A stretch of DNA of 64,000 bases from Haladaptatus cibarius D43. GTDB taxonomy: Archaea; Halobacteriota; Halobacteria; Halobacteriales; Haladaptataceae. Positions 2,469 through 13,465 of the stretch are shown here, piece after piece. A program made the position numbers and the translations under genes. How positions within the stretch are numbered: position 1 is the stretch's first letter; every line of letters starts with the position of its first letter. The stretch spans positions 178,082-242,081 of the forward strand of contig NZ_JDTH01000002.1 in NCBI RefSeq assembly GCF_000710615.1. The letters are read 5' to 3'. A model generated the notes under the pieces. That model had not been told where the DNA came from and did no database searches. It saw nothing but the letters and a program-made list of their open reading frames with translations.

Positions 2469-3668
2469 CTATCGTGAGAGTGCTTCCACCGCGGGGAGCG
2501 GGTCGCCGGTCAACATCCGAAGGCACGCGCCGCCGCCCGTGCTGACGTGGTCGAATCCGGACAGGCCGAACTTCCGAATCGCGGCCGCGGTGTCGCCGCC
2601 GCCGACGATGCTGTACTCGGCGTTCACGGCTTCGGTGTACAGTTCTCTGGTTCCGTCGGCGAAGGTGTCGTCCTCGAAGACGCCTGCTGGCCCGTTGAGG
2701 ATGACGGTTCCGGCATCCCGGAGAATTTTCGAATAGGCGGTGATGGTGGCGTTGCCGATGTCCATCGCACCCTCGTCTTCTTTCGGCGGGAAGTCGCCGC
2801 GCGTGATTTCCGCACGTTCGCCGTCGCGGGAGACTGCCGCGTCTTTCGGCAGGTGAATCTTATCGCTGTAGGCTTCGAGGAGGTCTGCGGCGTCGTCGAT
2901 GTAGTCCCAGTAGCCTTGGTCGTGGATAAAGTCCGCGCTGGCGTCACCGAGGTCAGCACCGTCGGCGAACAGGAAGACGTTGCCGACGACGCCCGCCGTC
3001 AGGACATGGTCTGCGAGGTCGCGCTCCAGCACGTTCTTTGCGACGGCGATGGAGTCGGATACTTTCGCACCACCGACGACGTACACCCGCGGGCGAGGTG
3101 TCGCGTCGATGTCGCCGAGGACGTCGAGTTCGTTCTCCATGACTCTGCCGACGTAGCCCGGAAGCCGCGTCGGAAAGCCGACGAGCGAGGGCTGAGAGCG
3201 ATGGGCCGCCGCGAATGCGTCGTTGACGTAGGCGTCGAGTTCGGGAACCAGACGGTCAACCAGATGGGTTTCGGCGGCCTCTTCGGCCGGGAACTCCATG
3301 TACTCCTCGCTGTAAAAACGGGTGTTTTCGAGGACGACCGCTTCGCTCTCGCGGAGGTTTGTGACCGCTGTTCGCGCATCGCCCGAGAATGTCGCGTCGC
3401 AGTGGGAGACGGGGTAGGATAGTAGTTCGTCCAGTCGCTCCGCGTGCGGGGAGAGGCTTGCGAAATCGTCGCTCCCGGGCCGCCCTTGGTGCGCGAGAAT
3501 CGCCACCTTACCGCCGCGTTCCAACAGTTCCGAGAGGGTATCGACGTGCGCCCGGAGTCGCGCGTCGTCGGCGAGGTCACCGGACTCGGTCAACGGACTG
3601 TTGATGTCGATGCGCACGCCGAGGGTCGTCCCTTGGACGGCGAGGTCGTCCAGGGTCTGAATAGGCAT
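2469..3668 (-). CDS. pgk: Phosphoglycerate kinase
   Basis: 399 residues, the usual length. It transfers phosphate between 1,3-bisphosphoglycerate and ADP in the cytoplasm, in lower glycolysis and gluconeogenesis. Signature regions are RIDINSPL (substrate binding), AILAHQGRPG, the conserved NDAFAAAHR and GYVGRVMENE, and the C-terminal nucleotide loop with GGGDTAAA and STGGGACLRML. ATG 3668 has GGAGG 8 bp upstream and matches family N termini. An in-frame ATG at 3695 sits where a leaderless transcript would begin, giving nine extra residues as an alternative. Confidence 0.95.
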   Translation of the reverse strand: MPIQTLDDLAVQGTTLGVRIDINSPLTESGDLADDARLRAHVDTLSELLERGGKVAILAHQGRPGSDDFASLSPHAERLDELLSYPVSHCDATFSGDARTAVTNLRESEAVVLENTRFYSEEYMEFPAEEAAETHLVDRLVPELDAYVNDAFAAAHRSQPSLVGFPTRLPGYVGRVMENELDVLGDIDATPRPRVYVVGGAKVSDSIAVAKNVLERDLADHVLTAGVVGNVFLFADGADLGDASADFIHDQGYWDYIDDAADLLEAYSDKIHLPKDAAVSRDGERAEITRGDFPPKEDEGAMDIGNATITAYSKILRDAGTVILNGPAGVFEDDTFADGTRELYTEAVNAEYSIVGGGDTAAAIRKFGLSGFDHVSTGGGACLRMLTGDPLPAVEALSR

Positions 3669-3675
3669 ACCTGTG

Positions 3676-3680
3676 CCTCC
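3676..3680 (-). promoter_or_regulatory. Shine-Dalgarno site deciding the pgk start
   Basis: GGAGG on the minus strand lies 8 bp before ATG 3668 and favours this start over the upstream in-frame ATG at 3695. Confidence 0.6.
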
Positions 3681-3718
3681 AACACCGCTCGGCATATGTG
3701 TGTCGGTAGCTGGTACTG

Positions 3719-3726
3719 AAAATAAA
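3719..3726 (-). promoter_or_regulatory. TATA box of pgk
   Basis: TTTATTTT on the minus strand is centred about 27 bp from base 3695, so transcription probably starts near 3695 and leaves a leader of about 27 nt before ATG 3668. Confidence 0.55.
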
Positions 3727-3834
3727 CACACTTTCGAGTAAACAGTGGAAAAACAAAAGAATCGGACATAATTGTCGAACAATCGGAAGTATGCCGCCGT
3801 TACCGAAATTCGCCCGGTGACTCTGTCGGAAAGG

Positions 3835-3878: not shown

Positions 3879-4994
3879 ATGGACGGCGTAAATGAAACCT
3901 ATTCACGTGGACGACGCCTCGTTGTCGAGCGACCACTGCTCGTGGTTGTCGGCCTCTTTGCGGCGCTTCTCGTCGTGGATTTCGTAAGCCGCCTGCTATC
4001 CGGCGACCTACTCGTGTCCGACGTCGGTTCGCTCGTCTGGAGCGGACTCATGCGCGGACTCATTATTGGCCTTGCCGGAATCGGGCTATCGATGACGTAC
4101 AGTATTCTGAACTTCGCCAACTTCTCTCACGGCGATTACATCACGAGCGGCGCGTTCACCGGTTGGGCGGTAACGTATCTCGTATCCGGGTTCAGCCAAT
4201 CCAGCCTTCCGGGCTTGCTGTTGGTCGGAGCGGGCGGAACGGTGTACGCGAGCGACCTCAACATAACCATTGCGACGACGCCAATCGCGGTCATTTTGGG
4301 ACTCGTTCTCGCCGGGCTGGGAACGATTGCACTTGCACTGTTCATCGACCGCGTGGTATACAGACCGATGCGCGATGCGGGCGGTATCGCCCTGCTCATC
4401 ACCAGCGTCGGCGTGGCGTTCATGCTTCGATACCTCATCGTGTTCGTCTTCTCGACGCAGAACCGCGGCACGACGGCGTCACAGGAGATACCTTCGTGGC
4501 GGCTTCTGCTCTGGGACGGAACCGTTCCCGTCACTGCACACGACCTCACCTTGCTCGTTTCGACGGTGGGGCTGATGGTCGGCGTTCACGTCCTGCTTCA
4601 GCGAACGAAACTCGGCAAGGCGATGCGCGCCATGGCCGACAACGAAGACCTCGCGCGAATCACCGGGATTCCGACCGAGCGCGTCATTCGCTGGACGTGG
4701 ATAATCGGCGGCGGCCTGACCGGGGTCGCTGGCTACCTGATGGTTCTCTGGACGGGAACCATCGACTTCCAGTTCGGTTGGCTCCTGTTGCTCCCGATTT
4801 TCGCCGCGGTCATCCTCGGCGGCATCGGGTCGATTTACGGCGCGATTCTCGGCGGGTTGGTCATCGGACTGACATGGGACTTGGCCATCATCTGGATTCC
4901 GGGTGAGTTCGGCCGGGCCGCCGCGTTCGGCATGATGATTCTCATCCTGCTGTTTAAGCCGCAGGGACTGTTCGCAGGGAGGACGACCGCATGA
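3879..4994 (+). CDS. livH: Branched-chain amino acid-type ABC transporter permease (LivH family)
   Basis: 371 residues, mostly hydrophobic, with about eight to ten membrane segments and a charged 20-residue N terminus. The LivH pattern is visible: an N-terminal GLSMTYSILNFANFSHGD region, the RAMADNEDLARITGIPT cytoplasmic loop (about 245-265) that contacts the ATPase, and the GGIGSIYGAILGGLVIG hairpin near the end. It forms the membrane channel with LivM. It is first in a four-gene operon and overlaps livM by 4 bp. Family members also carry urea or amides, so the substrate is not certain. Confidence 0.9.
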   Translation: MDGVNETYSRGRRLVVERPLLVVVGLFAALLVVDFVSRLLSGDLLVSDVGSLVWSGLMRGLIIGLAGIGLSMTYSILNFANFSHGDYITSGAFTGWAVTYLVSGFSQSSLPGLLLVGAGGTVYASDLNITIATTPIAVILGLVLAGLGTIALALFIDRVVYRPMRDAGGIALLITSVGVAFMLRYLIVFVFSTQNRGTTASQEIPSWRLLLWDGTVPVTAHDLTLLVSTVGLMVGVHVLLQRTKLGKAMRAMADNEDLARITGIPTERVIRWTWIIGGGLTGVAGYLMVLWTGTIDFQFGWLLLLPIFAAVILGGIGSIYGAILGGLVIGLTWDLAIIWIPGEFGRAAAFGMMILILLFKPQGLFAGRTTA

Positions 4995-6316
4995 GCGCGA
5001 GTTTCCGCGATTTCGAAGTCAGCGACACGATGCTCATCATCGGCGCGCTTCTCGGCCTGTACGCGCTGTACCTCCTCGCCGGGTCGGCGCTCGGCTACTC
5101 GTTCCGCGGCCAGTTGAACTCCCTCGCGCGCCTCACGTTCCTCATTGCGGTGTACGGAATGTTGGCGCTCGCGTTGAACCTACAATGGGGATACACCGGG
5201 CTGTTCAACATCGGCATCGCGGGATTCATGGCTGTCGGATTGTATACGATGGCCATCGTCTCGAAACCACCGGCAAGCGCGACTGCAGGGGCCGCGACCG
5301 TGTCCGGACTTGGCCTGCCTCTCTGGGTCGGCATCATCGCCGGAATGCTCGCGGCGGCGCTTCTGGGCTTGCTCATCGCGCTTCCGGCGTTACGGTTACG
5401 GGCCGACTATCTCGCCATCGTGACCATCGCGATGTCCGAAATCGTTCGGTTCACCGTGATGTCGAACCAGTTCCAGAACGTCGTGATATTCGGCAGAAAC
5501 CTCGGAACCGGCGGCGGTCGCGGTCTGCTGTTGAACTACGACGACCCACTGCAACCGCTGTTCGACAGCGCCCCCTACGCGGCGGTGGAGAACGCGCTGA
5601 ATCCGCTCGTGGGCGGCAGTGTCGGGCCGGTACTCGATTCGCTAACTTACGCAATCATCCTGATGGGATTCGTCGCCGGATTCTACTGGTTGCTCAAGCG
5701 AACCGGCGAATCGCCGTTCGGTCGTGTTCTCAAGGCCATCCGGGAGGACGAGGAGGTTGCGAACGCCCTCGGCAAGGACACCGACCGGTTCAAAATCAAG
5801 TCGTTCATGCTCGGGTGTGCACTGATGGGACTGGCTGGCATCCTCTGGCAACTCCGGCAGGGTGCCATCACGCCGACATCGTTCAGACCGCAGGTGACGT
5901 TTTTCGTCTGGTTGGCCCTCATCATCGGCGGTGCGGGGTCGAACACCGGTAGCGTTCTCGGTGCGGCGGTGTTCGCCGGTCTGCTGTTCCAAGGGCCGCT
6001 GTACCTGAAGAACATCATTCGGCAGGTGTACGACGTTTCGGCGTCGCCGAACACGTTCGCCGACGCAATCGGCCCGGTATTCGCGGGCAACATCACGCCG
6101 TTCGTCGCGTACACCATCAACAACATCAACGCGTTGCAGTTGGTCATCATGGGCGTCGTGCTCATTTTGATAATGCAACGCCGCCCTGAGGGCGTGCTCG
6201 GCCACCGCAAGGAGGAGGCCGCGAGCATTCCGCTCTCGCGTCCGCGCAGTGGCGGTGGCACGCCTGAACCGAAACCCGCGACTGACGGTGGCGAACAAGG
6301 AGGTGACGGACAATGA
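4991..6316 (+). CDS. livM: Branched-chain amino acid-type ABC transporter permease (LivM family)
   Basis: 441 residues, somewhat long for the family. The core has many membrane segments, the NLQWGYTGLFNIGIAGF motif (about 59-75), the AIREDEEVANALGKDTDRFK ATPase-coupling loop (about 246-265) and GGAGSNTGSVLGAAVFAGLL. The last 45 residues are a hydrophilic Gly/Pro-rich tail. It pairs with LivH to form the import pore. It overlaps both neighbours by 4 bp (ATGA), a sign of translational coupling. Confidence 0.9.
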   Translation: MSASFRDFEVSDTMLIIGALLGLYALYLLAGSALGYSFRGQLNSLARLTFLIAVYGMLALALNLQWGYTGLFNIGIAGFMAVGLYTMAIVSKPPASATAGAATVSGLGLPLWVGIIAGMLAAALLGLLIALPALRLRADYLAIVTIAMSEIVRFTVMSNQFQNVVIFGRNLGTGGGRGLLLNYDDPLQPLFDSAPYAAVENALNPLVGGSVGPVLDSLTYAIILMGFVAGFYWLLKRTGESPFGRVLKAIREDEEVANALGKDTDRFKIKSFMLGCALMGLAGILWQLRQGAITPTSFRPQVTFFVWLALIIGGAGSNTGSVLGAAVFAGLLFQGPLYLKNIIRQVYDVSASPNTFADAIGPVFAGNITPFVAYTINNINALQLVIMGVVLILIMQRRPEGVLGHRKEEAASIPLSRPRSGGGTPEPKPATDGGEQGGDGQ

Positions 6317-7146
6317 CTGCAAGCGAATCCGAACAGAGAGAAACGCTCGACATCGGGCGTGAAACGGTGGATTTGAGCGAAACGCCGCTTCGAGTCGAAA
6401 ATCTCCGCAAGACGTTCGGCGGAATTACTGCGGTTGACGGCGCGACGTTCTCCGTCGAACAGGGGTCGTTCACCGGACTCATCGGGCCGAACGGGGCCGG
6501 AAAATCGACCACGTTCAACCTCATCACCGGCGTCTATCAACCGGACGGCGGCGCGGTGTACTTCGACGACGAGGACATCACCGGACAGCGCCCGTACCAA
6601 ATCGCCAATCGCGGACTGGTGCGGACGTTCCAAATCGCCCGCGAACTCGCGGAGATGACAGTGCTCGAAAACATGATGCTCGCGCCGAAAGCGCAGGAGG
6701 GCGAGAAACTCTGGCGGTCGGTGACGCCCGGACTTCGAGGCAGCGTCGAACAACAGGAAGAAGAAGTCCTTTCTCGCGCGTGGGAAATGCTCGATTTCTT
6801 CGAAATCGAGCATCTCGCGGGTGAATATGCGGGCAACCTCTCCGGCGGCCAGCGAAAACTGCTGGAGATGGCGCGGGCGCTCATGACCGACCCGCAGATG
6901 GTTCTACTGGACGAACCGCTGGCGGGCGTCAACCCGTCGCTTGAAAAGAAACTGCTGAAACACGTCCACGAACTGCGCGAACGTGGCTACACGTTCCTGC
7001 TCGTGGAACACGACATGGACGTTATCATGAACAACTGCGAACACGTCATCGTGATGCACCAAGGCAAGGTGCTCGCCGAGGGCGAACCGGCGGAAATCCG
7101 CTCGAACGAGCAGGTCATCGACGCCTATCTGGGGGACGAAGTCTGA
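6313..7146 (+). CDS. livG: Branched-chain amino acid-type ABC transporter ATPase (LivG family)
   Basis: 277 residues. After a hydrophilic leader of about 25 residues come the Walker A loop GPNGAGKST (about 57-65), the Q-loop, the ABC signature LSGGQRK (about 176-182), Walker B with LLDEPLAG, and the switch His in LLVEHDMD. The ELAEMTVLENMML region is typical of LivG. It hydrolyses ATP on the cytoplasmic face to drive import. It overlaps livM by 4 bp and livF by 1 bp. Confidence 0.93.
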   Translation: MTASESEQRETLDIGRETVDLSETPLRVENLRKTFGGITAVDGATFSVEQGSFTGLIGPNGAGKSTTFNLITGVYQPDGGAVYFDDEDITGQRPYQIANRGLVRTFQIARELAEMTVLENMMLAPKAQEGEKLWRSVTPGLRGSVEQQEEEVLSRAWEMLDFFEIEHLAGEYAGNLSGGQRKLLEMARALMTDPQMVLLDEPLAGVNPSLEKKLLKHVHELRERGYTFLLVEHDMDVIMNNCEHVIVMHQGKVLAEGEPAEIRSNEQVIDAYLGDEV

Positions 7147-7853
7147 TGGCACTCCTCGAAATCGACAGCCTCGACGCGGGGTACGGCGAAGACTTGCAAA
7201 TCCTCGACGACGTGGATATGCGCGTCGAAGATGGCGAGTACGTCACCATCGTCGGGCCGAACGGGGCCGGGAAATCGACCGTGATGAAATCCGTCTTCGG
7301 ACTGACGACCTACATGGGCGGAACGGTCACCTTCGAAGGAACCGAAATTCAGCGGAAGACGCCGGAGCAAATCATCCACCAGGGACTTGGCTACGTCCCG
7401 CAGAACGACAACATCTTCGGGTCGCTCTCCGTGCAGGAGAACTTGGAGATGGGCGCGTACATTCTAGACGAAGTGCCGGACGACGCGCTTTCCGAGGTGT
7501 TCGAACGCTTTCCGATTCTCCACGAGCGCAGGGAACAGAAGGCCGGAACGATGTCCGGCGGCCAACAGCAGATGCTCGCCATGGGGCGGGCGCTGATGCT
7601 CGACCCCGACTTGCTGATGCTTGACGAACCGAGCGCGGGATTGGCTCCCGACCTCGTGGCCGAGATGTTCGACAAGGTTGACGAAATCAACGACTCCGGC
7701 ACCGCGATTCTGATGGTCGAGCAGAATGCGAAGGAGGCTCTACGGCGCTGCGACCGCGGCTACGTCCTCGTACAGGGTGGCAACCGGTTCATGGACACTG
7801 GAGACGCCCTGCTGGCCGACGATGAGGTCAGACAGGAGTTCCTCGGCGGCTAA
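7146..7853 (+). CDS. livF: Branched-chain amino acid-type ABC transporter ATPase (LivF family)
   Basis: 235 residues, full length. Walker A GPNGAGKST (about 38-46), signature MSGGQQQML (about 137-145), Walker B LLMLDEPSAGLAP and the switch region MVEQNAKEAL identify the LivF half, which partners LivG. It is last in the liv operon. No binding-protein gene follows on this strand; the two binding-protein genes lie just beyond, in the opposite direction. Confidence 0.93.
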   Translation: MALLEIDSLDAGYGEDLQILDDVDMRVEDGEYVTIVGPNGAGKSTVMKSVFGLTTYMGGTVTFEGTEIQRKTPEQIIHQGLGYVPQNDNIFGSLSVQENLEMGAYILDEVPDDALSEVFERFPILHERREQKAGTMSGGQQQMLAMGRALMLDPDLLMLDEPSAGLAPDLVAEMFDKVDEINDSGTAILMVEQNAKEALRRCDRGYVLVQGGNRFMDTGDALLADDEVRQEFLGG

Positions 7854-8294: not shown

Positions 8295-9578
8295 TTACCC
8301 GCCCAACGCCTGATTGATGACCGACGTGTACGACGATTCGCCGATGTTGAACGCGACTTGGTTGTTGACCTGTCCGTCGTGGTCTTGCTGGAACGACTGC
8401 GAGAACTGTTCGGACAACTGTTGGCCGTAGTCGTTGTTCACGAACAGGGTGGAAGCGGATTGTGCGCCGAGTCGTTCGGCCGCGACTTGTGCCATCACTT
8501 GCCCCTGAAGCAGGTCGCTCGGTGCGGTTCGGAAGACGTAGTCGTTGTCCTGCAAGCGCGAGACGGTAATCGCGGTACTGGACGGTGAACAGCCGACGAT
8601 TTCGTTCGGGATGTACACCTCGCTCGAAACCGGGATGTTGTTCCCCGACGATGCCGGGCCGGAGATGGCCGGATAGCCCGCGTTGACGAGCGCGTTCGCA
8701 CCCGAGAGTGCCGGTTGTCTGGATGTTTGCGTGTCTTCGACCTGCGTTTCGACTTGCAGGTCTACGTCGGCCTGATTCACCTGCTGAATCGGGATTCTGG
8801 ACGCTTGAATCATGGGCGTCCCGACGGAGCCGAGGTCGCCGGTTTCCGGAAGCAGGATACCGACTCTGATGGTTCGTCCGGTTCCGCCGGGTGCGTTGTT
8901 CGCGCTCGGCCCGCCCGCGTTGCTCTCGAATCGCCGCGTGTTCACGGTTCTGATGCCGTCCTCGGTCTGCGGCGCGAACTGCCACACGTCGTAAGATGCC
9001 GCGGCGGGGTCGCCGTTCTGATCGAAGTTGGTCGTACTCGATGCTCCTTGGTAGTTGATGTCGTCTCCGTTCGCGGCGGCTTGAACTCCCTCCACAAAGT
9101 TCTGTGGGCCGTACTCCTGCCCGCCGGGGTTAGCGATTCGGCGCATCTGTTCGCGGATGGCCGACCCGGTGTTCTCGCCTGCTGCGGCGTTCGCCAGAAT
9201 CAGGATTGCGACCGAATCGTAGGACTGCGAGGTGAACACGCCCGGTGGTTGGTTGTACTGGTCTTGGAACAGTTGATTGAACGCATCTTGGTTCGGTCCG
9301 GCGGCGGCGGGTGCGGTTCCGGTGACGTTCTGCATGTCGTTGCCGACTTCCTGCGGAAGCGTCGATGACTGTAGGCCGTCCGGAACGAGAACGTCGAGGT
9401 TCTGTCCGGTTGCGTACAGGTCGCGGAACAACTGAATGCCGCTTTGCGGATAGCCGATAATAGTGAGCATATCCGGGCCGCCGTCCTGTTGGAGCGACCC
9501 CATCAGGCCAGCGGTCGTCGCGACACCTACGCCACCCATCCCCCGAAGGTAGGTGCGACGGTCGATTTTGTGTCTCAT
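8295..9578 (-). CDS. LivJ-type substrate-binding protein with swapped halves (circularly permuted), Tat-exported
   Basis: 427 residues. The N terminus carries a Tat motif (RRTYLRG, residues 7-13) but no lipobox Cys, so the product may be released or held by other means. Residues about 36-212 match what is normally the C-terminal half of type I periplasmic-binding proteins (IIGYPQSGIQLF, PDGL, PPGVFTSQSYDSVAILI, INYQGAS, FDQNGDPAAASYDVWQF). A linker follows, then residues 245-427 match the normal N-terminal half (IRVGILLPETGDLGSVG, AISGPASSG, YVFRTAPSDLLQGQ, STLFVNNDYGQQL). The protein ends where the usual hinge crossing would be. It likely feeds the nearby livHMGF importer. Confidence 0.85.
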   Translation of the reverse strand: MRHKIDRRTYLRGMGGVGVATTAGLMGSLQQDGGPDMLTIIGYPQSGIQLFRDLYATGQNLDVLVPDGLQSSTLPQEVGNDMQNVTGTAPAAAGPNQDAFNQLFQDQYNQPPGVFTSQSYDSVAILILANAAAGENTGSAIREQMRRIANPGGQEYGPQNFVEGVQAAANGDDINYQGASSTTNFDQNGDPAAASYDVWQFAPQTEDGIRTVNTRRFESNAGGPSANNAPGGTGRTIRVGILLPETGDLGSVGTPMIQASRIPIQQVNQADVDLQVETQVEDTQTSRQPALSGANALVNAGYPAISGPASSGNNIPVSSEVYIPNEIVGCSPSSTAITVSRLQDNDYVFRTAPSDLLQGQVMAQVAAERLGAQSASTLFVNNDYGQQLSEQFSQSFQQDHDGQVNNQVAFNIGESSYTSVINQALGG

Positions 9579-9613
9579 ACCCGGGGGAACTGTCGTCGTT
9601 CTGCAGGAAAAGT

Positions 9614-9623
9614 CTATTTTAAA
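9614..9623 (-). promoter_or_regulatory. TATA box of the first substrate-binding protein gene
   Basis: TTTAAAATAG on the minus strand lies about 41 bp before ATG 9578, giving an expected leader near 15 nt. The gene therefore has its own promoter and need not be read from the upstream paralogue. Confidence 0.5.
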
Positions 9624-9727
9624 CTATCGTTATAGATTTTGGTCGATTCATCCCTCCGTTACCGATACAACAGGTGTCAGAATCGATGACCGTTTTTACA
9701 GAGCGGCGTCCAGCGGGGAGAACGGAA

Positions 9728-11059
9728 TTAGTTCGAATCCGTCGCTTTGTTGATGACGGAGGTGTAGGAGTTTTCGCCCTTGTTGAACGACACTTTGTTC
9801 AGGATTTCGCCGTCCTGTTCTTCCGTGAATGCCGAGGAGAACTTCTCGGATAACTGCTGGCCGTAGCTGTTGTTCACGAACAGCGTCGAGGCGGTGCTGC
9901 CGCCGAGTCGCTCGGCGGCGACCTGTGCCATAACTTGTCCCTGAAGCAGGTCGCTCGGGGCTGTGCGGAAGACGAAGTCGTTGTCCTCCAAATTCGTCAC
10001 CGTGAGCGCCGTGCTCGACGGCGAACAGCCGACGATGCTCTGTTTGGTGAACACCTGTTTGCTCACCGGGATGAAGTTTCCGGACGAAGCAGGGCCACAG
10101 ATGGCCGGGTAGCCCGCGCTGACGAGTGCGTTCGCACCGGAAAGCGAGGCCTGTTTCGTGGTTTGTGAATCCTCGACTTGCGAGTCAACTGTCACGCTGA
10201 TTCCCGCGTCGTTCACCTGTTGAATCGGCAAGTTCGCCGCCTGAATCATCTGGCTCCCGACGGAACCGAGGTCGCCGGTTTCCGGAAGCAGAATACCGAC
10301 CATGATTTCACGGTCTTGGCCGCCGGGCGAACTGTCCGCCATGTTGCCACCAGCGTCGCCGTCGAAGTTGATGGTATCGACGGTTTCCGAACCCGCATCC
10401 GTATCCGGAGCGAACTTCCACACGTTGTAAGCCGCGGAGGCCGGGTCGCCCTTCTCGTTGAAATCGACCACACTGGATGCGCCCTGATAGTTGATGTCCT
10501 CACCGCGTGCCGCGGCTTCGACCGCTTCCACGAAGTTTTCGGGGCCGAACTCCTGCCCACCGGGGTTGGCGACTCGACGCATCTGGTCGCGTATCTTTTG
10601 ACCATCGTTCGCACCCGCCGCCGCGTTGGCGAGGATGAGGATGGCAACCGCATCGTAGGAGTGTGCGGTAAACACGCCCGGCGCGCTGTCGTATTCGTCG
10701 CGGTACATCTCCGTGAACGCCTCTTGATTCGGCCCGGAGGCGGCCGGAGCGGTTCCGGTGACGTTCTGCATGTCGTTGCTGACCTCCTTCGGGAGGTCAG
10801 CGTCGAGCAGTCCGTCGGGAACGATAATGTCGTGGCTTCCGTCGGTGTTTTTGTAATAGTCGCGGAACAGTTGGATACCGCTTTGCGGGTAGCCGATAAC
10901 GTTGATAACGTCCGGGCCACCACCGTTTCCGCCGCCATTTCCGTCTCCATTGCCATCACCATCTCCAGCGCCGCCACCGCCGATACAGCCCGCAAGACTG
11001 GCGATTCCAGCGGTTCCGACACCTTTCAAAACGTCACGTCGTTCGATACCATATCTCAT
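9728..11059 (-). CDS. LivJ-type substrate-binding lipoprotein with swapped halves (circularly permuted)
   Basis: 443 residues, a paralogue of the neighbour with the same swapped order: normal C-half at about 50-220, linker, then normal N-half at 251-443. It starts with a Tat motif (RRDVLKG, residues 7-13) and lipobox LAGC (Cys 25), then a Gly/Asp/Asn-rich spacer, so it is a membrane-anchored lipoprotein on the outer face. ATG 11059 is preferred over ATG 11083 because the TATA box at 11086-11094 is about 31 bp away. It probably delivers amino acids or related ligands to LivHMGF. Confidence 0.88.
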   Translation of the reverse strand: MRYGIERRDVLKGVGTAGIASLAGCIGGGGAGDGDGNGDGNGGGNGGGPDVINVIGYPQSGIQLFRDYYKNTDGSHDIIVPDGLLDADLPKEVSNDMQNVTGTAPAASGPNQEAFTEMYRDEYDSAPGVFTAHSYDAVAILILANAAAGANDGQKIRDQMRRVANPGGQEFGPENFVEAVEAAARGEDINYQGASSVVDFNEKGDPASAAYNVWKFAPDTDAGSETVDTINFDGDAGGNMADSSPGGQDREIMVGILLPETGDLGSVGSQMIQAANLPIQQVNDAGISVTVDSQVEDSQTTKQASLSGANALVSAGYPAICGPASSGNFIPVSKQVFTKQSIVGCSPSSTALTVTNLEDNDFVFRTAPSDLLQGQVMAQVAAERLGGSTASTLFVNNSYGQQLSEKFSSAFTEEQDGEILNKVSFNKGENSYTSVINKATDSN

Positions 11060-11085
11060 GGATAGAGATGGGTATCGACTCATGG

Positions 11086-11160: not shown

Positions 11161-11724
11161 CTAGTATTCGCGGCAGTCGGTACAGACCAGTTGGCCGTTG
11201 ACGTTCGCTAGTTCCCGCGTGAGTTTGCCACAGACCTCACAGATGCTTTGCCCTTCGTATTCGGTGTCGCCGCCGTTCGTTTCCATCGTTCCGACGAGTT
11301 CGGCGTCGCTCACCTCCGGTTCGGGAGAGGACGTAATGCTCGACGGCGATGCCGAGGCAGAAATCACGTCCCGTTCGGTGAGCAGGCCGACCATCTCGTC
11401 GTCGCGGGTGACGACGAGCCGTCTGATTCCCTGTTGTGCCATTACCCCCGCGGCGTCGGCGAGACTGCGGTCTGCCCGCATCGAGACGACAGGACTCGTC
11501 ATCGCGTCGGCGACGGTGGTTTCGGTAGCATCTCTTTCGTCTGCGACGAGGCCGACGACGTCCGATTCGGTCATGATTCCCACCGGTTCGCGTCCCCGAA
11601 GGACGACGACGCTCCCCACGCCTTCCGTCTGCATGAGTTGTACTGCGCCGAGAACGGAGTCAGATTCACTGACCCCCACGTATTCGCGGGTCATCATATC
11701 CCGGATTGTGACTTCAGCGTCCAT
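11161..11724 (-). CDS. CBS-pair protein with C-terminal zinc ribbon
   Basis: 187 residues. Two CBS motifs occupy about 5-60 and 68-123 (IRDMMTREYVGV..., VADAMTSPVVSM...), a pair that usually binds adenine nucleotides. A Ser/Pro-rich linker follows, then a zinc ribbon with two Cys pairs (CEVCG and CTDC, about 163-185). The role is probably regulatory, through nucleotide sensing. It is monocistronic, upstream of the binding-protein genes. Confidence 0.85.
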   Translation of the reverse strand: MDAEVTIRDMMTREYVGVSESDSVLGAVQLMQTEGVGSVVVLRGREPVGIMTESDVVGLVADERDATETTVADAMTSPVVSMRADRSLADAAGVMAQQGIRRLVVTRDDEMVGLLTERDVISASASPSSITSSPEPEVSDAELVGTMETNGGDTEYEGQSICEVCGKLTRELANVNGQLVCTDCREY

Positions 11725-11821
11725 ATGTGAACGTTTGACACAACTATGCTAAAAGCTATCCCCGGCACCTTTATTCCCGTCTCCCGCGAATATCTACGGT
11801 CTGCCGCCAGAGTCCAGTTCG

Positions 11822-12580
11822 TTACTGGAACTCCACGTTACTGCCGTCCGCGCGACACGTTTCGAGCGCGTGCTTTGCCGCCATTCCGGCATCCTGCGGA
11901 ACGCGACCGTTGCCGACGCCAACTTTCAGTTCGACTTCCACCGTGTCCCGAACGTGTCGAATGGCGTCTTCGTATTCGGCCTCGTCCAATTCCGGGCAAA
12001 CCGCGATGACGTTGTCGCCGCCGACGAAGAAAGAGAGGGAATCGTGGGCTTCGCGCATGTACCTCATCAGTTCCGCATAGCCCTGCTCGATGTGAATGAA
12101 CGAGTCGAAGGCGTTCACTTCGTCGGTGAAGTTGCCGGTCATGTCGTTCACGTCGAAATGCGCGATTTGGATGTCGTCGTCGGTTCGGAACTCCTCGTCA
12201 ATTGTCCGTCCGCGAAGGATTTCCCGACGTGACTTGTCCTGTGCGCTTCCCGCGTCCTGCAACTGTTCGGTTGCGTCGGCGAGCGCCTGCACTGGGCTGG
12301 TTCCGGTGGCGACACCGAGGCTGACCGTCACCGGGTAGCGGTTTCCGACCGATTCTTGTACGAGCGCGTGGTCGTCCATCGACAGGCCGTTGGTCACCGC
12401 AATCATGTTGTCGAACCGGGTGAAAAAGACGTAACCCTGCCGATTGCCGATGAGTTGCGAGAGGTCGGCGTACAGACGCGATTGGAGCGTCTGGAGGTCT
12501 ACTTCCCGGCGCGGTTCCGGCGTCACGGTCCACGGACCGTAGTTGTCGATTTGAACCAACGTAATCTGGGCGTTCGTCAC
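11822..12580 (-). CDS. gch3: GTP cyclohydrolase III
   Basis: 252 residues, the normal length. The enzyme converts GTP to 2-amino-5-formylamino-6-ribosylamino-4(3H)-pyrimidinone phosphate, the first archaeal step toward riboflavin and F420. It has two cyclase-like subdomains; visible family regions are TLVQIDNYGPWTVTPEPRRE at the start, GYVFFTRFDNMIAVTNG, VTVSLGVATG, and SFFVGGDNVIAVCP with KVGVGNGR in the second half. It stands alone. Confidence 0.92.
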   Translation of the reverse strand: MTNAQITLVQIDNYGPWTVTPEPRREVDLQTLQSRLYADLSQLIGNRQGYVFFTRFDNMIAVTNGLSMDDHALVQESVGNRYPVTVSLGVATGTSPVQALADATEQLQDAGSAQDKSRREILRGRTIDEEFRTDDDIQIAHFDVNDMTGNFTDEVNAFDSFIHIEQGYAELMRYMREAHDSLSFFVGGDNVIAVCPELDEAEYEDAIRHVRDTVEVELKVGVGNGRVPQDAGMAAKHALETCRADGSNVEFQ

Positions 12581-12814
12581 TGTTGGCTGTGGGTTTGACG
12601 TACTGGCCTATAAGTTGTCCTAATCGTGATTTGCGTCTCAGAAATGAGAACCGTTAGTGATACCTTATCGAGTAGTATCTACAACTACATTAACATTTAT
12701 ATATATGAGTAAAAAGAGGATTGCAAGCAAGGACAGGGTCAACACGGTCAGCAATCCATTCCAACCTAGTGTATTATCGAGAATTTATTTATATTAAATA
12801 AATAAGTTCATAAA
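12581..12814. other. AT-rich intergenic segment
   Basis: This 234-bp stretch is far richer in A and T than its surroundings, with runs such as TTTATATATATG near 12697 and TTATTTATATTAAATAAATAA just before 12815. It holds the promoters of the flanking divergent genes. A 30-codon frame (ATG near 12705) shows no recognisable feature and is not called. Confidence 0.5.
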
Positions 12815-13465
12815 ATGCAGCCACTAGAATCCCTTGCTTGCCCAACAGCCGGGCCGATACCTGCGCTGGGAACGTTGCTGCTCTACGTCGGTAGTGCTAT
12901 TCTACTGTATTCGATTTCAATTGTAGCATCGTTTTCAACTGGTGTGTTTCTCACGGAAGTTGGATTTTTAAATCGAGTTAGTGGACAGAGGTCTAGTTCA
13001 GAACTGAACGACAGTGAACCGACCATATTTGACTGGTCTCGCCAGTTCGAAATGGTAATTCTGTACGGTGGTGGTGCTATATCACTCCAAACCGTATACG
13101 GATTTACGTGTCCTGTAGACAGTTCTATTCCAATACTAACCCACGTTTTACAGAACGTCAGTTTTCAAATCGGATTGTTGGTTCTACTGGTCACGCTGTT
13201 GCTTCACGGGGGCGTGAGTCACCTCTCAAATCGCTTTGATTTTATCGAACGTTACCAGCAGCATATGAAAGGAGTGCTACTGATTTTGGTTATCGCATTT
13301 TCGGTGTATCAAGCTCCTTTTTCTTTATTCACACTTTTCCTGTTCTTTGTGGCAATCACCGTCAAGTTGGTTCAAACAGATTCGTGGTCCATCCGGATTT
13401 TGATGGCTTTCTGCTGGCTCTACCTACTAATTGGCTTCGTGCTGGCTGTCCTCTATATTTTCTAA
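12815..13465 (+). CDS. Polytopic membrane protein of unknown function
   Basis: 216 residues with about six hydrophobic segments (near 19-48, 70-90, 105-130, 152-170, 172-190 and 193-215) and no recognised motif. The gene and its upstream region are clearly more AT-rich than neighbouring genes and use rarer haloarchaeal codons, so it may be an acquired gene. A strong TATA-like run lies directly upstream. It ends 61 bp before udk. Confidence 0.6.
   Translation: MQPLESLACPTAGPIPALGTLLLYVGSAILLYSISIVASFSTGVFLTEVGFLNRVSGQRSSSELNDSEPTIFDWSRQFEMVILYGGGAISLQTVYGFTCPVDSSIPILTHVLQNVSFQIGLLVLLVTLLLHGGVSHLSNRFDFIERYQQHMKGVLLILVIAFSVYQAPFSLFTLFLFFVAITVKLVQTDSWSIRILMAFCWLYLLIGFVLAVLYIF

Follow-up and report, generated by a model that had tools for sequence, protein, structure and literature searches.

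Two adjacent genes of the haloarchaeon Haladaptatus cibarius D43, located within the 64,000-nucleotide stretch of DNA analysed here (the window), raise the question of whether LivJ-type substrate-binding proteins can exist in nature with their two halves in reversed order and, if so, how such an arrangement could have arisen.

Segment order and breakpoints of the two window proteins

Both genes are located on the minus strand and constitute unbroken frames in the ORF list (8295-9578 for copy 1 and 9728-11083 for copy 2). By hmmscan, the two frames scored 98.0 and 100.1 bits against PF13458 (Peripla_BP_6), for which the gathering cut-off is 31.7 bits, and two stretches were matched in each. In a search of the organism's own genome, profile positions 187-311 preceded 1-186 in copy 1 and positions 190-312 preceded 2-190 in copy 2, which is to say that 190-312 is encoded before 1-190 in both frames. 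The LivJ-type model PRK15404 (NCBIfam) matches the window proteins as well, albeit below its cut-off. Judged as members of the LivJ type, the proteins score sufficiently over both parts of the model, whereas the N-to-C order of these parts departs from it. Based upon sequence, the window genes encode circularly permuted LivJ-type binding proteins, as the original prediction had proposed. Its assignment to the LivJ family is also supported by the PF13458 searches, in which both halves matched the model, while its view of the genes as intact paralogues and not the product of an assembly slip agrees with the unbroken frames and with an identical order across genomes.

Copy 2 (9728..11083, minus strand), recognized from its Pfam order and the ORF list, comprises 451 aa from its first ATG or 443 aa from the ATG at 11059, which is probably the true start and is also the end coordinate given in the original prediction. 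The protein begins with a Tat signal and an LAGC lipobox followed by a Gly-rich spacer (10985..11059, minus strand, as read from the sequence), with the lipobox Cys corresponding to Cys33 of the 451-aa frame. Segment B, which is normally C-terminal, comes first (residues 57-240; 10364..10915, minus strand) and is followed by the linker DGDAGGNMADSSPGGQDR, which connects the old C-terminus to the old N-terminus (residues 241-258; 10310..10363, minus strand), and lastly by segment A, which is normally N-terminal (residues 259-451; 9731..10309, minus strand). Its permuted paralogue, copy 1 (427 aa; 8295..9578, minus strand), has a Tat signal lacking the lipobox Cys and is similarly composed of segment B (residues 35-217; 8928..9476), the linker ESNAGGPSANNAPGGTGRT (residues 218-236; 8871..8927) and segment A (residues 237-427; 8298..8870), all on the minus strand. 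The closest named records are from Haladaptatus pallidirubidus and H. litoreus and exhibit ~95% identity.

When aligned, canonical relatives read through the site of the cut as ...SSYSSQLSQA-LSDD-PDVVVVIGYPESG... with a chain end of ...DTIEFSA, and canonical homologues around this site read ...QA-LSDD-PDVVVVIGYP. The permuted proteins have an export signal and a spacer, then PDxLxVIGYPxSG (e.g. ...GG-PDMLTIIGYP), and they terminate in ...SSYTSVINQALGG or ...INQALGG. At the permuted junction, ...DTINF is joined to EIMVGILLP via DGDAGGNMADSSPGGQDR in copy 2 or ESNAGGPSANNAPGGTGRT in copy 1; the predicted linker between the old C-terminus and the old N-terminus is thereby evident in the alignment and has a length of ~20 residues. 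The new termini fall between ...SYTSVINKA and PDVINVIGYP, at Pfam position ~190 and LIVBP-type residue ~190-197. Where the two predicted models are locally confident, this position separates a helix from the strand that follows it within a single alpha/beta unit, which we take to lie inside lobe II based upon established LIVBP topology. The new ends had been expected at the inter-domain crossover, which was incorrect, as the cut is placed within this lobe II unit. Among the permuted haloarchaeal proteins, the linker is conserved across families and ends in GG-x-GR(T) or DRT, much like the residues preceding the first canonical strand (e.g. GGGSGRT-IKQGVLLP). Such a likeness would be expected if the tail of one gene copy had been fused to the head of another.

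Distribution among Halobacteria and beyond

Both genes are found side by side and in the same order in 9/9 Haladaptatus genomes. At the family level, 15 of 28 genomes yielded matches, all of which were permuted apart from a few additional canonical paralogues. Class-wide, 303 of 391 Halobacteria genomes matched at E <= 1e-40, with 171 of the 391 containing strong permuted-type matches (best E <= 1e-83, counted from the listed best E-values) and 132 containing the canonical order only. Upon inspection of four borderline genomes, the ~171 strong matches could be divided into ~167 genomes with intact genes of the window's arrangement (hereafter type 1), one with an interrupted gene, and three with a further arrangement (type 2, described below). 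The ~167 intact type-1 genomes come from several families and their copies are collinear. A search of other haloarchaeal genomes had been suggested in the original prediction, and the same order was indeed recovered from ~170/391 Halobacteria genomes. Together with its presence in 9/9 Haladaptatus genomes, this argues that the order is neither due to chance nor to an assembly slip. An origin of the order in faulty assembly, an error of frame, or a similarity due to chance is contradicted by the agreement among the independent assemblies of ~170 genomes, as well as by the unbroken frames and the low Ka/Ks values (0.045-0.069 for both copies between Haladaptatus species), which are indicative of purifying selection. 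Nothing was found in favor of this reading, which can be regarded as vanishingly improbable.

Canonical full-length homologues are encoded in 176/382 Halobacteria genomes, and canonical-order relatives occur in other Halobacteria, in other archaea of the phylum, and in bacteria. Classification of the non-redundant frames at the fetched loci yielded 77 permuted and 36 canonical ones. In searches of moderate sensitivity, the permuted form was not found in a sample of 24 genomes with matches from other members of the phylum, nor in a sample of 299 genomes from the phylum of the Rhodospira MAG encoding L040; both samples yielded canonical halves only. Both L040 and L041 had been candidates for bacterial permuted homologues, as they were collinear in a summary row, but tblastn gave the canonical order and they were rejected. 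Plasmid records contained no single-piece full-length match. One further candidate for a new segment order, L164 from genome G091, was rejected because it is a type-1 gene in which segment A is split by ~1.4 kb (9271-11847 of L179, likewise from G091); the interruption is possibly a mobile element and the gene is likely to be a pseudogene.

Phylogeny and a second permutation

Trees constructed from the segments in canonical order place 64 of the 66 type-1 proteins together in a single clade (SH-aLRT 94). Proteins L117 and L119 are long branches outside of the main type-1 clade and have the breakpoint common to type 1; a single type-1 clade including both was not rejected (p-AU 0.309). One type-1 origin early in the Halobacteria would be the simplest reading of these trees. 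Two divergent type-1 proteins with eroded linkers, L163 (G132) and L162 (G204), were located outside of the main permuted clade, which could reflect a misplacement of long branches or else a separate permutation event at the type-1 breakpoint.

The type 2 frames (L165 880-2214, plus strand; L166 883-2214, plus strand; L167 1501-2946, minus strand) originate from genomes G397, G404, and G330 and are arranged as a signal, A' (which starts with the second strand of lobe I), B, the linker, and finally beta1/alpha1 of lobe I. The type 2 cut is found in lobe I, after beta1-alpha1, and lobe II is whole again. Its linker is the type-1 linker (FESDNPDGAGEMADEGPGGFDR in L165). Type 2 is nested within the type-1 clade: two of the proteins group with the type-1 proteins from f4, the family to which they belong (support 95/98), while the third adjoins type-1 proteins, including those of its own genus, with weak support. 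A single type-2 origin was not rejected (p-AU 0.133). All three are encoded at the same livF-facing locus as type 1, and no type-1 gene was matched in G397, G404, or G330. Among 375 sampled genomes searched with a type-2 query, a full-length type 2 match was obtained only from G330, with G397 and G404 being absent from that listing; hence, type 2 is rare. Since it shares the type-1 linker, is nested in type 1, and occupies the same locus, nature appears to have opened the linker-closed ring at two distinct sites.

Genomic neighborhood

A convergent partner operon is located on the plus strand of the window and was assigned from ORFs and synteny. It encodes a predicted livH-type permease (3879..4994), a livM-type permease (4991..6316), a livG-type ATPase (6313..7146), and a livF-type ATPase (7146..7853), the end of which faces copy 1. 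Across ~30 regions drawn from many families, the permuted gene is nearly always convergent to livH-livM-livG-livF, and the canonical relatives L122 and L123 exhibit the same convergent layout. Often, phosphoglycerate kinase is encoded beyond livH, and the binding-protein gene has genes for a CBS-domain protein and GTP cyclohydrolase III upstream of it. We propose that the products of the two window genes would work as substrate-binding proteins for the LivHMGF ABC importer encoded next to them, with an amino acid or similar small molecule as the most likely ligand.

In the window, these neighbors are located at 2469-3782, 11161-11724, and 11822-12580 and are matched by homologues in many regions; named from their sequence by eye, we take them to be phosphoglycerate kinase, a protein that combines a CBS domain with a zinc-ribbon-like tail, and a protein resembling GTP cyclohydrolase III. 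In L129 (G337), two type-1 genes (366-1733 and 11440-13257) are separated by ~10 kb, one of which enters masked bases, and no livHMGF match was found around them within the fetched stretch. In Haloquadratum, livJ genes in general, not specifically permuted ones, were reported to be expressed above other liv genes (PMC5496347).

Ligand pocket and predicted fold

Residues S79, T102, Y150, Y202, and E/D226 (numbered via alignment to 3ipc) are presumably the ligand contacts of LIVBP-type proteins. Across 66 permuted and 32 canonical proteins, no variation occurs at the equivalents of S79, T102, Y150, and D226, and the Y202 equivalent is either Y or F in the same set. In copy 2, the pocket residues are split between S334, T358, and Y407 of the C-terminal segment and Y65 and D90 of the N-terminal segment. 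Due to the retention of these pocket positions, an amino-acid-type ligand is likely. S79, T102, Y150, and Y202 were also treated as contacts in a docking study (PMC6983066).

Structure prediction (AF2) from 10 input sequences yielded a mean pLDDT of 54 and a pTM of 0.50, and a canonical protein was likewise predicted with low confidence. The best Foldseek matches to this low-confidence model were all LIVBP-type and extended over ~195 columns, or about half of the chain, which is compatible with a permutation and not proof of one. Presumably, the proteins would adopt the ordinary two-lobed Type I (Venus-flytrap) fold, with the chain both entering and leaving midway through lobe II and the ~20-residue linker tying together the old termini as a fourth lobe crossing. 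It is also conceivable that two molecules exchange halves, such that a dimer would be the working unit. The two paralogues kept side by side in Haladaptatus could be suggestive of domain-swapped or multimeric use, as could the fact that lobe II is now assembled from both chain ends. However, most other genomes have a single permuted gene, the conserved linker is long enough for intramolecular closure, and type 2 has lobe II whole with only lobe I cut. We consider this scenario quite improbable and favor the ordinary Type I fold.

Export signals and membrane anchoring

Both window proteins contain a twin-arginine motif, with the Tat signal of copy 2 yielding a weak match to TIGR01409, and a lipobox is present only in copy 2. 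Copy 2 and 59 of 73 permuted frames have a lipobox directly ahead of segment B, with a long and variable spacer of 9-53 residues between the Cys and the domain. Canonical relatives are likewise lipoproteins. The original prediction had raised the possibility that the permutation places the lipid anchor on the other lobe and creates a new contact with LivHM. If the permutation were an adaptation that moves the anchor to lobe II and thereby alters docking on LivHM, the lipobox position in copy 2 and the other such frames would be in agreement, and a tethering advantage has been raised for TpMglB-2 (PMC4990184). However, the canonical relatives are lipoproteins as well and have the same livHMGF-facing position, no lipobox is present in copy 1 of any Haladaptatus genome examined, the spacer is variable, and type 2 (L165-L167) is re-anchored on lobe I at an unchanged livHMGF locus. 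An anchor shift thus lacks support as an explanation for the permutation; it is doubtful that an anchor on the other lobe was selected for, and such an adaptation seems unlikely. As a separate observation, the copy 1 and copy 2 paralogues may differ in their membrane anchoring (Tat only vs. LAGC).

Proposed origin

Tandem paralogues, of which the window pair is an example, are the raw material for duplication and fusion, and several steps can be envisioned for the origin of the permuted form. A canonical gene would have been tandemly duplicated in an early haloarchaeal ancestor, after which the C-terminus of one copy was fused in frame to the N-terminus of the next and the resulting fusion was trimmed to one domain's worth. 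At least one descendant lineage would later have re-cut the linker-closed ring in lobe I, yielding type 2, in which case the permutation is possibly serial. Neither a fused A-B-A-B intermediate nor the remnant of a gene was found, and the flanks, when searched for duplication traces, contained nothing convincing. It is likely that a first cut of the linker-closed LivJ ring, in lobe II, took place in an early ancestor of the haloarchaea (type 1) and that a further cut, in lobe I, followed within the same clade (type 2, once or twice), with type 1 and type 2 alike providing the binding protein for one and the same syntenic LivHMGF importer. The whole explanation, in which Venus-flytrap binding proteins of a LivHMGF importer were reordered by tandem duplication, fusion, and trimming with a later re-cut, is one that we hold to be highly probable.

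Comparison with known binding proteins

The permuted proteins resemble canonical LivJ/LIVBP-type proteins (PF13458; PDB 4gnr, 3td9, 4n0q, and 3ipc) in family over both segments, in pocket residues, in Tat or lipoprotein export, and in the livHMGF neighborhood, whereas they differ in segment order, in having their termini inside lobe II, and in the extra linker. Canonical haloarchaeal paralogues (e.g. L122 in G002 and L123 in G009) belong to the same subfamily with 46-57% identity per segment, as do the bacterial L040 and L041 with 33-39%, and all of these have the normal A-B order and no linker.

Within the open-access literature searched, we found no report of permuted LivJ or permuted haloarchaeal binding proteins, and the only natural permutation of a Type I binding protein encountered was TpMglB-2 (Tp0684) of Treponema pallidum. 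This crystallized sugar binder binds its ligand and changes conformation; its cut is in the N lobe, with the first three strands moved to the C-terminus, and it is the basis for the proposed "Type Ic / Cluster Bc", found among spirochaetes and Gram positive bacteria (PMC4990184). Both cases are natural circular permutations of a Type I binding protein with a fourth crossing via a linker, which for the haloarchaeal proteins is a prediction. However, TpMglB-2 is an N-lobe cut in the MglB sugar family, whereas the haloarchaeal proteins belong to the LivJ family and are opened within lobe II in type 1 and after beta1-alpha1 in type 2. They are outside of Type Ic / Cluster Bc as defined, being neither of the MglB family nor cut after strand 3 of the N lobe. 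Engineered permuted halves of the T. maritima ribose-binding protein indicate that permuted pieces of such proteins can fold (PMC9815098), although these are laboratory constructs, whereas the haloarchaeal proteins are natural and full-length.

The haloarchaeal proteins add a new permuted variant to the LivJ family, and they constitute a second, independent permutation that differs from TpMglB-2 in both its protein family and its domain of life, the most unusual part of which is the serial re-cut. The permuted form is also widespread, being encoded by >40% of the sampled Halobacteria genomes. With the same neighbors, the canonical, type 1, and type 2 forms provide a natural series on how permutation arises, which could further address the role of the anchored lobe in LivHM docking and ligand closure with new termini. 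Automated annotation hides the permutation, as canonical-order relatives are named "ABC transporter substrate-binding protein" and Pfam reports two partial stretches.
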